From Aquibacillus albus (GTDB lineage: Bacteria; Bacillota; Bacilli; Bacillales; Amphibacillaceae), in NCBI RefSeq assembly GCF_016908325.1, contig NZ_JAFBDR010000004.1, forward strand, positions 1-64,000: a DNA stretch of 64,000 nucleotides, written 5' to 3'. Positions 8,350 through 59,086 of this stretch are shown here, one piece after another (the stretch's first letter is position 1; each line of letters begins with the position of its first letter). The translations under genes were made by a program, and so were the position numbers. Under the pieces are notes generated by a model. That model made no database searches, was not told the origin of the DNA, and saw only the letters and a program-made list of their open reading frames with translations.

Positions 8350-8388
8350 AAGGGGGGGTCAGACCCCTAGGGGTCTGACCCCCCCCTT
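8350..8388. repeat. Double GGGGTCWGACCCC palindrome between lipL and pta
   Basis: GGGGTCAGACCCC (8355-8367) and GGGGTCTGACCCC (8370-8382) are joined by TA. Together they form a nearly perfect palindrome of about 39 bp. It lies between convergent genes and could act as a bidirectional transcription barrier, though there is no T-run. Confidence 0.85.
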
Positions 8389-17613: not shown

Positions 17614-17774
17614 TCATTTTCATCCTTTAACTTTTTGAATTTCATTATTCGATTATATACCTTATTCGATATTACTTTAAGCACTATGACCCGGAAATCA
17701 ATAATTGTTAAATAACTGTAAACGTCATTAATCTATGTGAAATATTAGTAACTTTGCTGACATTCAAAAGCAAA

Positions 17775-17787
17775 GGGGTCAGACCCC
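17775..17787. repeat. GGGGTCAGACCCC palindrome beyond ku
   Basis: A single copy, 20 bp past the ku stop codon. Confidence 0.8.
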
Positions 17788-17806
17788 TAAACACGAGGCC
17801 CAACCT

Positions 17807-18885: not shown

Positions 18886-20706
18886 ATGATGCAACCAAAA
18901 CCAAGTGAAACCATTCCAACTGGAAATAATTGGGCTTATGAAGTAAAATATGACGGCTTCCGTGCTGCGTTGGTTTGGAAGGAAGATAACCTTTCACTTG
19001 TTAGTCGCAATGGAAAAGACTTAAGTAACAATTTTCCCGAAATTATAAGCGCCTGCCAAGAAAAGCAGGATCTGGTACATTCGCTGTTACCATTAAAGTT
19101 TGATGGTGAAATTGTTATTCTAAATACACTTCTACAAGCGAACTTTTCCCTTTTACAGCAAAGAGGAAGGTTCAAAGCTACGCGTAAAATTGAACAAGCA
19201 GCACAAGATCGACCTGCACATTTTCTATGCTTTGATTTATTAGAGTACGAAGGAAAATCTCTATTATCCCATCCCTTCCAAGAACGGAAAACGCAATTAA
19301 AAAAAGTGTTCGATCGATTGAAAATAGGTTTCCACATTAGCTGGAACGACAGGTTAGGATATATTCAAACTTATTCGGATCATAAGAAATTATGGAATAA
19401 CCTTTACGAACAGCTTGGTGAAGGAATGATTGCTAAACGCTTAGAGAGTAAGTACATAGAAGGGAAGAACCATCATGACTGGTACAAAGTGAAAAACTGG
19501 CGAACAATTCCTGGTGTATTAACTTCTTATGATCAGGAGAATGGATACTTTGAGTTATCGGTATATGACGGGAAAAACCTTGTCCCCCTTGGAAAATTCA
19601 AGCATGGATTAGAGGGAAATGAATTGGAAACGATCAAACAGTTCATCCATGCAAAGGGAAACAAAACAGGCAATAAATATGAACTACCACCTGCTGTTTG
19701 TCTCGATGTAAATTGCTTAGGAATCCACGAGGGGGATTTACGTGAGCCGCAATTTCATCAATTTCGTTTTGATTTATCCCCAGAGGATTGTACTGTTTCA
19801 CAGGTACAAGAAGCATTAAGTTTGTTTCCAGATTCAATATCCTTAACCAATCAGACAAAAGTTTTTTGGGAGAAAGCAGGAAAAACAAAGGGAGATTTAC
19901 TTGTGTACGTACGGCAAATTGCCCCATATATGTTACCATTTACAACCAATCGAGCATTGACCGTTATACGTTGTCCAGACGGCATTCATGGACAGTCATT
20001 TTTCCAAAAGCATCTACCTGATTATGGACCTGCGTTTGTCGGTGGCATTCAAGTTGGAGATGAAACACTGCTTCACGGAGGGAGCGCGGAATCACTGACT
20101 TGGCTGGCCAATCATGGTGCACTGGAATATCATGTCCCTTTTCAGTACATGGGTAAATCCAATCCAATCGAAATTGCATTTGACTTAGACCCACCAAGCA
20201 TTGATCAATTTGATGTGGCGATTTATGCAGCATCTTTGTTAAAGGAGCTGCTCGACCAATTACAACTACAGTCGTTCGTAAAAACGTCAGGTAATAAAGG
20301 AATACAAGTTTATATTCCTATTCCAGAGAACAGTTTGACTTATGCCGAAACTGCGGTCTTTACACAAGGAATAGCCTTTTTATTAGAAAAGAAACACCCT
20401 GATTTATTTACAACCGAACGTTTAAAAAAGAACCGTAACAACCGGTTATATATTGATTACATCCAACACGGAAAAGATAAAACATTGATTGCTCCCTACT
20501 CGCCAAGAAAAAGCGAAGCAGCTACTGTATCGACTCCGTTGTTTTGGGATGAAGTAAATGAATCATTAAAACCGGACCAATTCACGATTACCTCTGTATT
20601 AGCAAGAGTCAAAGAAAAAGGTTGTCCCTTTGCCAGCTATGAGCAAGTAAGAGACAACCAAGATTTATCATTTATAAAAGAATTTGTGCACACAAAAGGG
20701 GTCTGA
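18886..20706 (+). CDS. ligD: ATP-dependent DNA ligase/polymerase LigD
   Basis: A two-domain repair enzyme that fills and seals ends held by Ku. The N-terminal ligase domain has the adenylation motif EVKYDGFR with nucleophile Lys at residue 21, and LSRNGKDLS after it. The C-terminal polymerase domain (about residues 320-606) contains EIAFDLDPPS with the catalytic Asp pair. There is no phosphoesterase domain, as in Bacillus LigD (YkoU, 611 residues). AGAGGTG precedes the ATG pair. The stop codon TGA lies inside a GGGGTCTGACCCC repeat, so the last residues KGV are encoded by repeat insertion sequence. Confidence 0.95.
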   Translation: MMQPKPSETIPTGNNWAYEVKYDGFRAALVWKEDNLSLVSRNGKDLSNNFPEIISACQEKQDLVHSLLPLKFDGEIVILNTLLQANFSLLQQRGRFKATRKIEQAAQDRPAHFLCFDLLEYEGKSLLSHPFQERKTQLKKVFDRLKIGFHISWNDRLGYIQTYSDHKKLWNNLYEQLGEGMIAKRLESKYIEGKNHHDWYKVKNWRTIPGVLTSYDQENGYFELSVYDGKNLVPLGKFKHGLEGNELETIKQFIHAKGNKTGNKYELPPAVCLDVNCLGIHEGDLREPQFHQFRFDLSPEDCTVSQVQEALSLFPDSISLTNQTKVFWEKAGKTKGDLLVYVRQIAPYMLPFTTNRALTVIRCPDGIHGQSFFQKHLPDYGPAFVGGIQVGDETLLHGGSAESLTWLANHGALEYHVPFQYMGKSNPIEIAFDLDPPSIDQFDVAIYAASLLKELLDQLQLQSFVKTSGNKGIQVYIPIPENSLTYAETAVFTQGIAFLLEKKHPDLFTTERLKKNRNNRLYIDYIQHGKDKTLIAPYSPRKSEAATVSTPLFWDEVNESLKPDQFTITSVLARVKEKGCPFASYEQVRDNQDLSFIKEFVHTKGV

Positions 20707-20710
20707 CCCC
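20698..20710. repeat. GGGGTCTGACCCC palindrome overlapping the ligD stop
   Basis: The palindrome supplies the TGA of ligD and ends three bases before the stop codon of the convergent aminopeptidase at 20713. Confidence 0.85.
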
Positions 20711-34027: not shown

Positions 34028-35272
34028 TTACGCGTTAAAATCTAACGCCCAAGTCCCATCACGGAATACCGGTTCTGATTTCCCATCTGCTGTTACACCA
34101 TCAATGTTTAAATCAGCAGATCCAATCATGAAGTCCACATGGGTAAGGCTATCGTTTACCCCATGTTTATCCAGCTCTTCCTCATTCATTTCAGATCCAC
34201 CCTTAAGGTTTGTTGGATATGCTTTCCCTAAAGCGATGTGACACGATGCATTTTCATCAAACAATGTGTTGTAGAAAATTAACCCAGATTGAGAAATTGG
34301 CGACTCATGCGGAACGAGCGCTAACTCACCCAAGCGACTAGAACCGTCATCTGTTTCTAACAAGTGCTTTAATGTCTCATAACCCTGCTCCGCCTTATAG
34401 TCGACCACTTTTCCATCCTTGAATGTTAAGCTAAAGTTATCAATCACATTTCCACCATAGTTTAGAGGCTTTGTACTGGACACCGTGCCATTCACCCCAT
34501 ACTTATGTGGCATTGTGAACACTTCTTCGGTTGGCATATTTGGATTAAAATCGATATCCGTACCTGCTAATTTAGCCGATCCGCCCTTCCAAATATGTCC
34601 CTCTGGTAATTCAAATGTAATATCTGTTCCTTCCGACTTAAAAACTAGCTTCTTATACTGTCGTTTATTTAAAAATTCCCTAGCTTTTCTTAATGTTTTA
34701 TTGTGTTCATCCCAAGCTGCAACAGGATCTTCTTTATCCACACGAACAATTTTAAAAATTTGGTCCCAAAGGCTTTCGATTGCCTCTTCCTTTGTTTTAT
34801 CCGGAAAGATTTTTTGCGCCCAGTCTCCAGTTGGAATGGAAATAATCGACCATGGAATTCGATCGTTCATCGTGTATTTTCTAAATTCCTTCATTGCTTC
34901 TGCCCCAGCCTTCGTTGCCTTAGCAACACGTCCGGGATTAATATCCTTTAATAAATCTGGATTTGTAGACCGAATCGCTAGTAGTGCAGCGCCGTCCTCC
35001 GCATAATACAGGTGCTTATCCACTTGCCATTGTGGAATCGTTGTCAAAACTTCCTCAGGGGCATTCTCATATTTTAACAATGTAATTTCATCATCTGTCC
35101 AGTTGATATGTACATTTTTAGCGCCGAGCTCATAAGCCTTTCTTACAACAACTCGTGTAAATTCCACACCTTCAATCGATGAATTAATGACAAGCGCTTG
35201 ACCTTTTTGTAAATTCACCCCAGTGCGCAGTGCTAACTCTGCATACTTTTCTTGCATTTGTTTATCTGCCAT
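34028..35272 (-). CDS. Aminopeptidase, M29 family, second paralog
   Basis: A 414-residue metallo-aminopeptidase closely similar throughout to the product of 20713-21963. Shared blocks include GVNLQKGQALVINSSIEG, PTEEVFTMPHKYGVNGTVSST and HIALGKAYPTNL, so the metal ligands are conserved in both. ATG at 35272 is preferred over the GTG immediately before it, since GGAGGG is seven bases upstream. The two copies probably arose by gene duplication in this lineage or before it; division of labour between them is not known. Confidence 0.92.
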   Translation of the reverse strand: MADKQMQEKYAELALRTGVNLQKGQALVINSSIEGVEFTRVVVRKAYELGAKNVHINWTDDEITLLKYENAPEEVLTTIPQWQVDKHLYYAEDGAALLAIRSTNPDLLKDINPGRVAKATKAGAEAMKEFRKYTMNDRIPWSIISIPTGDWAQKIFPDKTKEEAIESLWDQIFKIVRVDKEDPVAAWDEHNKTLRKAREFLNKRQYKKLVFKSEGTDITFELPEGHIWKGGSAKLAGTDIDFNPNMPTEEVFTMPHKYGVNGTVSSTKPLNYGGNVIDNFSLTFKDGKVVDYKAEQGYETLKHLLETDDGSSRLGELALVPHESPISQSGLIFYNTLFDENASCHIALGKAYPTNLKGGSEMNEEELDKHGVNDSLTHVDFMIGSADLNIDGVTADGKSEPVFRDGTWALDFNA

Positions 35273-35313
35273 CACATTCCCTCCATTATTCTGTATCTAT
35301 TTCATAATAAGCT

Positions 35314-35360
35314 GAGACTGTCCCATAGGGGTCTGACCCCTTTGTTGTTGGGGCAGCCTC
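35314..35360. terminator. Terminator-like hairpin interrupted by a GGGGTCTGACCCC palindrome
   Basis: GAGACTGTCCC (35314-35324) and GGGGCAGCCTC (35350-35360) can pair with one G-T wobble. The same two arms, joined by only seven bases, form the intact terminator at 54825-54857. Here the loop holds GGGGTCTGACCCC (35328-35340). No T-run remains on either side, so terminator function may be weak. Confidence 0.6.
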
Positions 35361-35429
35361 ATCTCATACTCTGAAGCTATTATTCCACAAAAGATCAAAA
35401 TCATAAAGCTTAAGTACTTTTGTAGCTAT

Positions 35430-37325
35430 TTAAGCATTTTCGTTTTCTATCTCCTCAATTAACATCGATAGTTCCGTCCAACGATCCATCGCATATTCTA
35501 GCTTTTCCTCGATCACTCGTTGTTCGTCGTATAGCTGCTGGACCTTTTCCAAATCACTGCCCGCCGCTGCAATATCAGCTTTTATTTTTTCCAGCTTGTC
35601 CTCTAATTCCGTAATCCGGTCTTCAATTCCATCCCATTCCTTTTGGTCATTATAGGAAAGCTTTTTTCTTCTAGTTGGTTGCTTAGTTTGGTGATTCTGC
35701 TTATTTGTTTTTTCTGTTTGCGCTTTCGTTTCTGTGACCTGCTGCAAATATTCCGAATAATTGCCATAAAAGGTTCTCGTACTGCCATTCCCTTCAAAAG
35801 CAATCAACTGATCAACCACACGATCTAAAAAGTATCGATCGTGTGAGACAGTGACAACGACACCAGGAAATTGATCTAAATAATCTTCTAGCACACCTAG
35901 CGTTTGCGTATCTAAGTCATTGGTTGGTTCATCAAGAAAAAGAACGTTAGGCTCACTCATCAGCACTCGCAATAGATAGAGCCTTCTCCGTTCCCCTCCG
36001 GACAGCTTACGAATATACGTCCATTGTTGGGAACGCGGGAACAAAAATCGTTCCAGCATTTGTTCTGCTGTAATGACCTCTCCCTTCGCTGTATGAATAA
36101 CTTCTGCTTCCTCACGTATATACTCAATCACACGCAGGTTCTCATCCATTTCCGAATGGTCCTGTGTATAATAACCAATTTTCACTGTCGGGCCAATTTC
36201 AATTTGCCCGCTATCTGCAGAAGTTCGATTCGCCATTATATTTAATAAGGTTGTTTTTCCACTCCCATTCGGTCCAATGATGCCAATCCGATCACCCGGC
36301 GTAATCAAGTAGTCAAAATCTTTTATAATCGCTCCGTCGCCATAAGACTTTTCAATACCTTCTAACTCGATTACTTTTTTCCCGAGGCGGGTCGAACCAG
36401 CTTGAAAATCTACCTGTTCTGAGCTTGTATCAAACTTTGTTTCCTTCATATCCTCCACACGTTGAATCCGTGCTTTTTGTTTCGTCGTTCTAGCTTTTGC
36501 ACCTCTTTTTAACCAAGCAAGTTCTCGTTTTAACGTGTTTTTATGCTTTTGTTCATTTTGAAGTTCCTGTTCCTCACGCTCGGCTTTCTTTTCCAAAAAG
36601 GTTTCATAGTTTCCTTCATAAATATATAAATTCCCTTTATCCAGTTCATAAATCCGATTCGTTATTCGATTTAAAAAATAACGATCGTGCGTCACTAGAA
36701 TGATGGCACCTTTATATTGTGGCAAGTAGCTTTCTAACCATTCAATCGTTGGATTATCGAGATGGTTCGTCGGTTCATCCAAAATTAATAGATCTGCCGG
36801 TTGAATGAGTGCACTTGCAATGGCTACCCGCTTTTTTTGACCACCAGAAAGCTGACTGATTTGTTTATCAAAGGCTGTTATTCCCAGCCTTGTTAACACT
36901 GTTTTAGCAGCTGTATTGGCATCCCATGCATCCTGCTGCTCCATTTGCTGCTGCACTTGAAGCAGTTTATTTTGTAAGGATTCATTGTTCGGATTCGCCT
37001 CTAATTCTAACAATGTCTTTTCGTAGTGGCGCATCACCTTCATTAAATCCGATTCGCCATAATAGATTTGCTCCAATACGGTTAAATCTTCATTTAATTG
37101 TGGCTCCTGACTTAAATACTCCACATGAAAATCATTGGCATGCTTGATCGACCCCTGTTCCGATGAGTCCAACCCTGCTAGCACTTTTAATAATGTTGAT
37201 TTACCTGTTCCATTTACACCGATTAAACCAATTCTCTCTCTTTCTTCGATTGTAAACGAAATCGAATCAAATAATACCTTGTCTCCATATGATTTATACA
37301 AATTTTCTACGGATAATATGCTCAT
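35430..37325 (-). CDS. yfmR: ABC-F family ATPase (YfmR-like)
   Basis: A soluble double-ABC protein that acts at the ribosomal E site. It has two Walker A motifs (GVNGTGKSTLLK about 37-48; GPNGSGKTTLLN about 352-363) and two signatures (LSGGQKKR, LSGGERRR). The linker with the lysine-rich KKAEREEQELQNEQKH is between them, and a C-terminal coiled coil (about 545-631) is the DNA/RNA-binding tail of the Uup/YfmR subgroup. 631 residues agree with that subgroup. There are no membrane domains nearby. The start is normal. Confidence 0.92.
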   Translation of the reverse strand: MSILSVENLYKSYGDKVLFDSISFTIEERERIGLIGVNGTGKSTLLKVLAGLDSSEQGSIKHANDFHVEYLSQEPQLNEDLTVLEQIYYGESDLMKVMRHYEKTLLELEANPNNESLQNKLLQVQQQMEQQDAWDANTAAKTVLTRLGITAFDKQISQLSGGQKKRVAIASALIQPADLLILDEPTNHLDNPTIEWLESYLPQYKGAIILVTHDRYFLNRITNRIYELDKGNLYIYEGNYETFLEKKAEREEQELQNEQKHKNTLKRELAWLKRGAKARTTKQKARIQRVEDMKETKFDTSSEQVDFQAGSTRLGKKVIELEGIEKSYGDGAIIKDFDYLITPGDRIGIIGPNGSGKTTLLNIMANRTSADSGQIEIGPTVKIGYYTQDHSEMDENLRVIEYIREEAEVIHTAKGEVITAEQMLERFLFPRSQQWTYIRKLSGGERRRLYLLRVLMSEPNVLFLDEPTNDLDTQTLGVLEDYLDQFPGVVVTVSHDRYFLDRVVDQLIAFEGNGSTRTFYGNYSEYLQQVTETKAQTEKTNKQNHQTKQPTRRKKLSYNDQKEWDGIEDRITELEDKLEKIKADIAAAGSDLEKVQQLYDEQRVIEEKLEYAMDRWTELSMLIEEIENENA

Positions 37326-53233: not shown

Positions 53234-53255
53234 CTAAGGGGTCTGACCCCCTTAG
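53234..53255. repeat. GGGGTCTGACCCC palindrome inside the lia operon
   Basis: CTAAGGGGTCTGACCCCCTTAG, written in two parts as CTAAGGGG and CCCCTTAG around TCTGA-C, extends the core (53238-53250) to a 22-bp stem. It lies between liaH and liaF. Confidence 0.8.
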
Positions 53256-54517: not shown

Positions 54518-54640
54518 TAGTAGACAACGAAGGAAGTGTATTTTTCAAATCGTGCAGTATTTGCTGGAGAAGGCGTGGCTACGACGGAGGATTCATCTTA
54601 TTAGATTCTACTAATGATCATAGGCGCTTCTTGTCGTTGT
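54518..54640. repeat. Imperfect inverted repeat upstream of yjcZ
   Basis: ACAACGAAGGAAG and CTTCTTGTCGTTGT (with one-base bulges) frame about 95 bp containing GGAGAAGGCGTGGCTACGAC. It is built like the GC-rich elements at 9.7, 10.2, 22.7 and 23.2 kb but does not share their core; relation uncertain. Confidence 0.35.
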
Positions 54641-54676
54641 GACAGTTACTAAAGATTGAAGTTAGGAGGAATATTA

Positions 54677-54814
54677 ATGGGCTTCGGATATGGTGGATAT
54701 GGCTATGGTGCCGGTTATGGTGCAGGCTGTAGCGGCTATGGTGCCGGAGGAGGATTTGTATTAATTGTTGTACTGTTTATCCTTCTCATTATTGTAGGCG
54801 CAGCATGGTACTAA
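54677..54814 (+). CDS. yjcZ: YjcZ family small glycine/tyrosine-rich membrane peptide
   Basis: A 45-residue protein whose N-terminal half is Gly/Tyr repeats (GFGYGGYGYGAGYGAG...) and whose C-terminal half is a single helix (FVLIVVLFILLIIVGAAWY). This is the YjcZ/sporulation-associated family pattern of Bacillaceae. AGGAGGAA precedes the ATG by six bases. Too short for a routine ORF cut-off. Its role is unknown; family genes are often expressed in sporulation. Confidence 0.9.
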   Translation: MGFGYGGYGYGAGYGAGCSGYGAGGGFVLIVVLFILLIIVGAAWY

Positions 54815-54822
54815 ATTGTTAG

Positions 54823-54862
54823 AAAAGAGGCTGTCCCAAAAAATGGGGCAGCCTCTTTTTAT
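54823..54862. terminator. Bidirectional terminator between yjcZ and the murE-like gene
   Basis: AAGAGGCTGTCCC (54825-54837) pairs with GGGGCAGCCTCTT (54845-54857) with T-runs on both strands. The same arms appear in the interrupted hairpin at 35314-35360. Confidence 0.9.
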
Positions 54863-54886
54863 GAAAAAATATACAATGGATGGTAG

Positions 54887-56347
54887 TTATTTTAACTTCA
54901 GGCTTTTAAAGTACATCACCGTTTCTTTGTCCGTTTTTGTTGGTAAAGCAAATGCTTGTTGATATTGTTCATGGCCTTTTCCTGTAATAATAATCCAGTC
55001 GCCTTTTTTACTATTTGCTACTGCATGTTCAATCGCTAAGGTACGATCAGGTATGATAACACCCTTGTCATTGCCATAGGTACTATTAAGCGATTCCAAT
55101 GTATGTAACATTTCCTTCAAAGGTACTGCATTTAAATCATCCATCGTCAATACATATTGATCACTTAAATCAGCAGTAATTTGAATCATTTCTTTTCTTT
55201 TTGTCGTATCCCGATTGCCTCTAAAACCGAAAATATGAATAATCCTTTGTGCCCCGGAGGAACGCGCTGTATGTAAGCAATGGAAAACTGCATCAGCGGT
55301 ATGTGCATAATCAACAATGACATTTGATCCATTTTGTTGAGGGAACACTTCAAATCTCCCATCTACACCGGGGAAAGTTTTGGTTGAATCGATGATATCC
55401 TTCGTTTGTATAGATAGTTGTTGTGCTGCAGCATAAGCCATTGCAGCATTGTATAAATTATGTGTTCCCGCCATAGGAAAAGAAATCGTCTGTTGTTTCG
55501 AATTTTCTTCTATTTTAATGGTCGGATTTGGTGAAGGTTCGATTTTGCTAATAAAGTAGTCATTGTCCATCGATTGACCAACGGAAAACGTTTGGACTTG
55601 TTCATGTTGTAGCTTCTCAACCAGCTTTCTCCCCCAAATATCATCTGCATTAATAATGGCCTTCCCATCACGCTTCAATTTATTAAAAAGACTTGCCTTT
55701 GTTTCAAAATAATTTTCTAACGTCTCATGATAATCAAGGTGTTCGTGAGTCAAATTTAAGAATAAACATAAATCAAACTCCATTCCTTCTAGACGGTATT
55801 GGGACAATCCATGAGAAGATGCTTCTAAAATGACAAATTGATCCTTGCTTTTATTTAATAGATGATTGATGGTTAGCGAACTCGGTGTCGTATTCTTCGA
55901 CTTCATGCTTTCTCCATTAACGATTGTCTGAATGGTTCCAATCAATGAGCAGGATAATCCATTTTCTTCTAAAATATGCTTTAAAAGATAACTCGTTGTT
56001 GTCTTTCCATTCGTGCCTGTAACAGCGATCATTACTTTCGATTTGGATGGGTTTCCATAGTAGTTTTTTGCCAGAACCCCAAGCGCCTGTCTGCTATTTT
56101 CCACCTTTATGTACGGGACAGACAAACCGCTTAATTCTTGTTCCCCAATAATCGCAGATGCACCTTTAGTTATTGCATCATCGATAAAATGATGGCCATC
56201 AAATGTATTCCCCTTTATTGCTACAAAAAGAAAACCCTCTTTTATGCTGGAAGAGGATTCCGCTATCCCTGTTATCTTTAAACGGTCTAAAGTATCGAGA
56301 GACTTGCATTCATGCTGTATATCTTTTAATACTTGTAGTAATTCCAT
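54887..56347 (-). CDS. MurE-like Mur ligase with an altered substrate motif
   Basis: An ATP-dependent amino acid ligase of the Mur family, 486 residues. MurE-type features: TGTNGKTTTSYLL (P-loop), TTPSSLTINHLL, EASSHGLSQYRLEG, NLTHEHLDYHETLENYF, GVDGRFEVF and FGFRGNRDTTKRKEM. Where MurE has the DNPR (diaminopimelate) specificity loop, this protein has TMDDLNAVPLKEML. So its amino acid or acceptor may differ from peptidoglycan precursors. ATG at 56347 follows AAGGAG. It is outside any dcw cluster and probably is a second, specialised copy. Confidence 0.8.
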   Translation of the reverse strand: MELLQVLKDIQHECKSLDTLDRLKITGIAESSSSIKEGFLFVAIKGNTFDGHHFIDDAITKGASAIIGEQELSGLSVPYIKVENSRQALGVLAKNYYGNPSKSKVMIAVTGTNGKTTTSYLLKHILEENGLSCSLIGTIQTIVNGESMKSKNTTPSSLTINHLLNKSKDQFVILEASSHGLSQYRLEGMEFDLCLFLNLTHEHLDYHETLENYFETKASLFNKLKRDGKAIINADDIWGRKLVEKLQHEQVQTFSVGQSMDNDYFISKIEPSPNPTIKIEENSKQQTISFPMAGTHNLYNAAMAYAAAQQLSIQTKDIIDSTKTFPGVDGRFEVFPQQNGSNVIVDYAHTADAVFHCLHTARSSGAQRIIHIFGFRGNRDTTKRKEMIQITADLSDQYVLTMDDLNAVPLKEMLHTLESLNSTYGNDKGVIIPDRTLAIEHAVANSKKGDWIIITGKGHEQYQQAFALPTKTDKETVMYFKSLKLK

Positions 56348-59059: not shown

Positions 59060-59086
59060 GGGGTCTGACCCCTGGGGTCAGACCCC
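59060..59086. repeat. Double GGGGTCWGACCCC palindrome
   Basis: GGGGTCTGACCCC (59060-59072) and GGGGTCAGACCCC (59074-59086), joined by T. The order is the reverse of the pair at 8355-8382. Confidence 0.85.

Follow-up and report, generated by a model that had tools for sequence, protein, structure and literature searches.

In the 64,000-nucleotide stretch of Aquibacillus albus DNA analysed here (the window), a short palindrome lies within the loop of a longer hairpin, in the spacer between a putative ABC-F gene and a putative aminopeptidase gene. Did the palindrome enter a hairpin that already stood there, or are both parts of one larger element that has lost its middle? That a hairpin with a palindrome in its loop occupies 35314-35360, as an earlier note had described, is real and can be read directly from the sequence: the outer arms enclose a loop of 25 nt, made up in order of ATA (35325-35327), the 13-mer GGGGTCTGACCCC and TTTGTTGTT (35341-35349). 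Folded as single-stranded DNA, positions 35305-35370 gave a z of -2.69, with 5 of 200 shuffled sequences folding equally well, and Rfam at gathering scores returned no match in 34900-35800. We consider it probable, at about two chances in three, that the window hairpin is a worn-down, internally deleted copy of a dispersed element, E1, and not an older hairpin that a short palindrome has recently entered (Table 1).

Table 1. Features of the window that bear on the origin of the nested hairpin
Feature	Position	Strand	Basis or remark
Inverted 13-mer pair	8355..8382	.	Repeat scan
13-mer whose right side resembles E1 (24 bases the same as in C4:231006-type E1)	17765..17788	-	Probable E1 remnant
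Solo 13-mer	20698..20710	+	Repeat scan
Putative aminopeptidase gene (name from the earlier note)	34028..35275	-	ORF; relatives in 61/61 genomes, the A. albus genome itself included
47-bp single-13-mer E1 copy, arms GAGACTGTCCC (left, 35314-35324) and GGGGCAGCCTC (right, 35350-35360)	35314..35360	-	Sequence, arm pattern, consensus fit
13-mer palindrome GGGGTCTGACCCC inside the hairpin loop	35328..35340	+	Sequence, repeat scan
Promoter-like box TGTGGAATAATAG (35379-35387, TGNNATAAT), preceding the hairpin when read towards the aminopeptidase gene	35377..35389	-	By eye
Putative ABC-F gene (name from the earlier note)	35430..37325	-	ORF; adjacent in 16/29 fetched relatives
Solo 13-mer	53238..53250	+	Repeat scan
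Short E1 copy without 13-mer, terminator-like (L134)	54827..54855	.	Arm-pattern matches
Inverted 13-mer pair, 1 nt between	59060..59086	.	Repeat scan

The 13-mer is a high-copy short palindrome, with 163 exact copies in the 4.41-Mb genome and none of the reversed-pattern control. The window holds eight exact copies, or 16 when both strands and up to two mismatches are counted (shuffle mean, 0.24). Among 159 genomes of the family, 31 carry at least one copy, and the only other genome of the genus in the comparison (G001) carries one; a search of the open-access literature for the 13-mer in either orientation found nothing. We collected 96 contexts from 811,220 bases, chosen mostly for holding 13-mers, and in 53 of these (on contigs C2, C1, C3 and others; e.g., L016) the 13-mer belongs to a composite repeat, in which it is followed after 4 nt by GTGGACATTTGTCCGCGGTGGGAGGACA or variants. 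By eye, GTGG follows the 13-mer in composite copies, and in long E1 a GTAG precedes the right 13-mer by 4 nt.

E1 itself is most likely, to judge from the sequences of its copies, a dispersed non-coding palindromic element of REP type, about 119 bp at full length; its predicted architecture is that of a GGGGTCWGACCCC-like palindrome in each arm, with the arms joined by a CTACAACA..TGTTGTAG stem. The copies fall into size classes: at least five of 107-119 bp, one of 71 bp with two 13-mers, four of 46-62 bp that hold one, and 17 of about 30 bp that lack it. The right-arm pattern TTTKGGRRCAGYCY has 24 matches in the genome (controls, 1 and 0), comprising 17 short copies, three with a single 13-mer (L125, L142 and L146; C1:2697, C13:17106 with a mutated 13-mer, and C17:15533 with an internal duplication), one with a double 13-mer (L133; C3:199306), one long copy (L126; C1:202492), one right half (L141; C13:10200) and one unassigned match (L148); the window copy, the fourth of the single-13-mer class, is missed by this pattern. 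The short copies are hairpins of the form GAGGCTGNCCC-TTTGCTTTT-GGGACAGCCTC or variants, several of them followed by T-runs, and the hairpin at 54827 is among them. The five long copies, found as matches that cover at least 103 of 110 query bases at 86-100% identity, are a lower bound, as 5 of the 188 first-look candidates in the A. albus genome were scored; L018 contains another, about 100 bp long, at 17669-17768. In the long copies the palindrome is imperfect and both arms contain a 13-mer-like stretch (-58, -52 and -39 kcal/mol for the three that were folded), and the right end is lost in L212 and L229 and damaged in L228. Long E1 thereby has the make-up of a REPIN, two inverted REPs in one end-to-end hairpin, with the window copy holding one 13-mer only. 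When the 158 other genomes were searched with long E1, 12 gave only matches of 19-40 bases, at E values of 0.0015 or worse.

The outer arms lead to a second hairpin of the window, at 54827-54855, which consists of GAGGCTGTCCC, a 7-nt loop (AAAAAAT) and GGGGCAGCCTC, and which the earlier note had given, with two more bases on each side, as 54825-54857. The two pairs of arms match, as stated there, but for one base (1 difference in 22), and the kinship that this implied holds in that both hairpins are members of E1; the reverse strand at 54827 departs from a 119-bp E1 consensus by one deletion and 2 mismatches of 29. The description "terminator-like" suits the hairpin at 54827, with an A-tract before and a T-tract after it, but not the one at 35314-35360, whose outer stem is followed by no T-run on either strand. 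A terminator scan listed, on the plus strand, the inner 13-mer hairpin alone at the latter place, and nothing in 54600-55000 although a T-tract follows the 54827 hairpin. Arms of the pattern GAGRCTGYCCC..GGGRCAGYCTC form hairpins at five places in the genome (control, 0) and in 4 of the 159 family genomes, with five in A. albus and one each in G104, G118 and G007; the 13-mer adjoins the right arm in the A. albus genome alone. The hairpin of G104, a genome of another genus (L092 1501-1537; GAGACTGTCCC..TTGTTGTTGGGGCAG / GAGACTGTCCC..TTGTTGTTGGGGCAGTCTC), is without the 13-mer and has 12 + 19 bases in common with the window copy, while the flanks are unlike.

The place of the hairpin between the two genes might suggest an ordinary terminator of the ABC-F gene that happens to carry a palindrome in its loop, since the ABC-F stop codon is about 70 bp upstream of it and many short E1 copies are terminator-like. 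This we regard as very improbable: besides the missing T-run and the 163-fold repetition of the 13-mer, the hairpin lies downstream of the promoter-like TGNNATAAT box, which, counted by eye, 11 of 16 syntenic spacers also contain. These come from 30 fetched aminopeptidase loci, one of them that of A. albus; of the 29 relatives, 16 have the ABC-F gene as the immediate upstream neighbour. The earlier note had proposed comparing the orthologous spacers in search of the short-loop hairpin; none of the 16 has one, and all lack both arms and 13-mer (best, 4-7 mismatches of 13). Hence, the window hairpin is not a conserved ABC-F terminator. The relatives' spacers measure 0-348 bp, 13 of the 16 being 61-95 bp long, and that of the window 154 bp. 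Between A. albus and G001, whose contig C44 is about 72% identical to the window contig C4 over alignable DNA, none of 11 sites was spanned by an alignment that could give an empty site at the nucleotide level, and only presence or absence could be judged. In one relative (L033, G012), another repeat-like palindrome, GGTGGTGACAGGCACC, lies in the spacer upstream of the aminopeptidase gene, just before the promoter-like box. Since the window hairpin is preceded by the TGNNATAAT box and followed by the aminopeptidase gene's ribosome-binding site, this E1 copy is probably transcribed as a 5'-leader hairpin of the aminopeptidase message, in which any role would be purely hypothetical; a promoter scan of 35200-35600 listed nothing, the box included.

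The preferred reading supposes that E1 reached the ABC-F/aminopeptidase spacer as one unit and later lost its central part, through slippage during replication or recombination among its repeats, so that one 13-mer was left between the outer arms; more loss would yield the copies of about 30 bp, some of them terminator-like. With a single deletion, the window copy fits the 119-bp consensus with 4 mismatches of 47, C3:199306 with 4 of 71, C13:17106 with 5 of 46, C1:2697 with 7 of 46 and eight short copies with 0-5 of 30-32, the consensus having been set by eye from the same E1 copies that were later fitted to it; C17:15533, with its internal duplication, fits badly (17 of 62). None of 2000 shuffles of the window loop reached 4 mismatches (minimum, 11), a control that mainly shows that the 13-mer is shared. 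The break-point overlap is CCC in five of the eight short copies and none in the other three, 2 nt in the 71-bp form, and one base (positions 13-14) in the window copy, where, with one more mismatch allowed, the break may fall anywhere in the shared GGGTCTGAC.

Such fits do not by themselves favour deletion, as the short consensus with a free 16-nt insertion also accounts for the window copy (4 mismatches of 31), and the G104 hairpin with an insertion does so with 5 of 37. Alignment alone gives no direction; as far as the sequences can indicate it, the direction rests on the intermediates and on the shared CATA left end. CATA precedes the 13-mer in all four single-13-mer copies and stands at the left end (CATAAGGG) in three of the five long ones; moreover, the window arm GAGACTGTCCC is the left end of the long copies L227 and L228. 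MAFFT aligned the single-13-mer copies with the long ones over the right part only, and the counts run against deletion, short copies (17) being more numerous than long ones (at least five). The insertion that the earlier note had proposed, in which a terminator hairpin of the GAG.CTGTCCC type stood in the spacer and the 13-mer entered its loop together with ATA, could draw, beyond these fits and the stretches shared with G104, on the short-loop hairpins with these arms (17 in the genome and one each in G104, G118 and G007) and on published cases of REPs within palindromes (PMC3733652, section 7). We nevertheless find it unlikely, given that the arms are absent from all 16 syntenic relatives, that the 13-mer has no general preference for hairpins (see below), and that insertion would account for neither the shared CATA nor the 71-bp and 107-119-bp copies, whose ends are the same. 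Central deletion from such longer copies is simpler and is favoured as the only account that covers the intermediate and long copies as well as the absence of the arms from the syntenic spacers.

The preferred reading leaves room for an older insertion at the birth of E1, the only point on which this mixed origin differs from it: one ancient insertion of a 13-mer pair (a REPIN) into a GAGGCTGTCCC hairpin would have made long E1; the element would later have spread, and many of its copies would have lost the central part. Inverted 13-mer pairs do occur outside E1 (the two of the window in Table 1), arms without the 13-mer exist in three other family genomes, and GTAG-15 dimers sit in long palindromes of Anabaena variabilis (PMC3733652, section 7). 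However, the junction between long and short forms, at one loop edge, may equally be a deletion, and no dated or ancestral copy is among the E1 copies seen; we entertain the mixed origin as a tentative possibility.

Whether hairpins serve as targets at all was addressed in the 13-mer contexts, 17 of the 96 being dropped because a 13-mer half lay in the flank. A flanking stem score of at least 9 was reached by 4 of 30 solo copies (the window, C2:39615, C2:192500 and C2:248238) and 0 of 49 composite ones, where exchanged partners gave 2.2% and 1.1%, respectively. General hairpin targeting by the 13-mer is not supported, and a small excess among solo copies exists. Of the earlier view of a REP-type repeat that entered a hairpin already standing at this place, the first half is upheld, the repeat being mobile-looking, and the second is not supported, few 13-mers being found in hairpins; its statement that such target choice is known has a precedent for REP dimers in palindromes in section 7 of PMC3733652, and no source was found for IS200-like elements. 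If any other hairpin holds a 13-mer, the strongest single case is C2:39615 (L006, L014), where complementary arms of 13 bp, AGTTTTGCAAAAA / TTTTTGCAAAACT, which have no relation to E1, enclose the 13-mer exactly.

The flanks of E1 outside GAGGCTG/CAGCCTC, by contrast with exchanged ones, are complementary copy by copy (e.g., GAAAC|E1|GTTTC, AATAC|E1|GTATT and AAGGAAA|E1|TTTCCTT), with long complementary flanks at C9:80672, C13:75939 and C3:131171. In 23 of the 25 copies (the 24 pattern matches and the window copy, with L141 and L148 left out), the mean was 3.04 contiguous pairs vs. 0.93 after exchange, and none of 20,000 right-flank exchanges gave as high a value; the window copy adds one flank pair. 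Possibly, whole E1 enters the dyad centre of pre-existing palindromes, a RAYT-type enzyme placing the element at the tip of a single-stranded DNA hairpin, which we regard as doubtful; if true, it would keep the idea of a hairpin target, shifted from the 13-mer to the whole element. The pairing could alternatively come from stem extension by template switching (a route described in PMC8794818) or from selection for terminator strength after insertion. In 19 E1 copies (six of the 25 left out), there was no excess of 2-9-bp direct repeats, and the window flanks form a weak imperfect direct repeat that 5.1% of random pairs equal. The target-site duplication that would mark a MITE of a DDE insertion sequence was not found in these 19 copies.

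The A. albus genome holds four Y1_Tnp genes. The product of one, C2:73762-74370, exceeds the Pfam cut-off for Y1_Tnp, reaches 66.7 bits with NCBIfam REP_Tyr_transpos (cut-off, 80) and carries HxH (NHIHL, by eye). This RAYT-type gene is flanked by 13-mers, the nearest 2 nt past its stop codon, which belong to the composite repeat with GTGGACATTTGTCCGCGGTGGGAGGACA (13-mer + GTGGACA..) and not to E1. A match to the C2 protein occurs in 30 of the 31 family genomes bearing the 13-mer vs. 44 of the 128 without it (Fisher, 4e-11), where matches include distant paralogues and related genomes are not independent. From the copy 2 nt after the stop and this co-occurrence, the 13-mer is, on sequence grounds, associated with a RAYT-type tyrosine transposase; that the C2 enzyme, as an HUH transposase, moves the 13-mer repeats, including E1, in trans is what we infer with less certainty. 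Two more RAYT-like genes (L010, L011) have no 13-mer in the fetched loci, and a 13-mer-like site lies within 1.5 kb in only 2 of 29 fetched RAYT-like loci of relatives, which counts against the link. Relatives of the C2 transposase occur in Bacillus, Salipaludibacillus, Mesobacillus and other genera. In the 16 loci examined of 43, exact 13-mers lie within 10 kb of the homologous gene in four (Salipaludibacillus aurantiacus, Salipaludibacillus sp. CUR1, S. neizhouensis and Bacillus sp. BHET2), and GGGG-[AT]-[CG]..CCCC palindromes in seven, these four included. Near the homologous gene of Bacillus kwashiorkori and B. methanolicus (L169, L172), the palindromes have other sequences (GGGGACTGTCCCC; GGGGTCTGGCCCC, paired in inverted orientation next to the gene), as though transposase and repeat had changed in step. 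Around the A. albus gene, C2:60001-100000 (L016, L017) holds 21 of the 163 13-mers in 40 kb (1.5 expected), and 50 of the 61 copies in C2:1-280000 are in minus orientation, the same as the gene; 13-mer copies also lie on the RAYT contig in G031, G035, G111 and G018. The crowding may reflect either local, orientation-biased spread or an island.

Taken together, a hairpin within a hairpin that resembles targeted insertion is probably better explained by a longer palindrome losing its middle and, if the direction is right, the 119-, 71-, 47- and ~30-bp forms would trace how mobile REP-type DNA can turn into ordinary terminators. The case also brings out an abundant RAYT-associated repeat, that of the 13-mer. 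Among known systems, TIRYT-linked terminal inverted repeats carry the motif GGGGWSAS (Di Nocera et al., 2013; PMC3733652, section 16), which GGGGTCAG, the 13-mer start on the other strand, fits; as with those repeats, 13-mers lie on either side of a RAYT-like gene, and their families include dimers; the sections consulted of that paper, which names Bacillus twice, hold no Bacillus example. Nesting of a REP-type palindrome in a constant outer palindrome is shared with the REP dimers GTAG-15 of Anabaena variabilis, GTAG-23 of T. roseum and CGTC-1 of H. neapolitanus (PMC3733652, section 7), whereas E1 shows graded lengths with the same ends in one genome, which point to deletion. Central deletion of inverted REP dimers is the origin proposed for double-foot REPs in section 13 of PMC6006769, as it is here for E1; those repeats keep their GT[AG]G feet, while the window copy keeps the outer arms and one 13-mer. 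E1 resembles the REPINs described, with REP singlets and RAYT, by Bertels and Rainey (2011; PMC3116915) in being an inverted pair of short palindromes in a long hairpin, with many copies and a RAYT-type gene in the genome; it differs from them in sequence, in its extra outer arms (GAGGCTGTCCC) and in the graded series down to REP-less hairpins. For REPINs, the same paper states that loss of the stretch separating the paired REPs can yield a long palindrome in which only one REP is retained.
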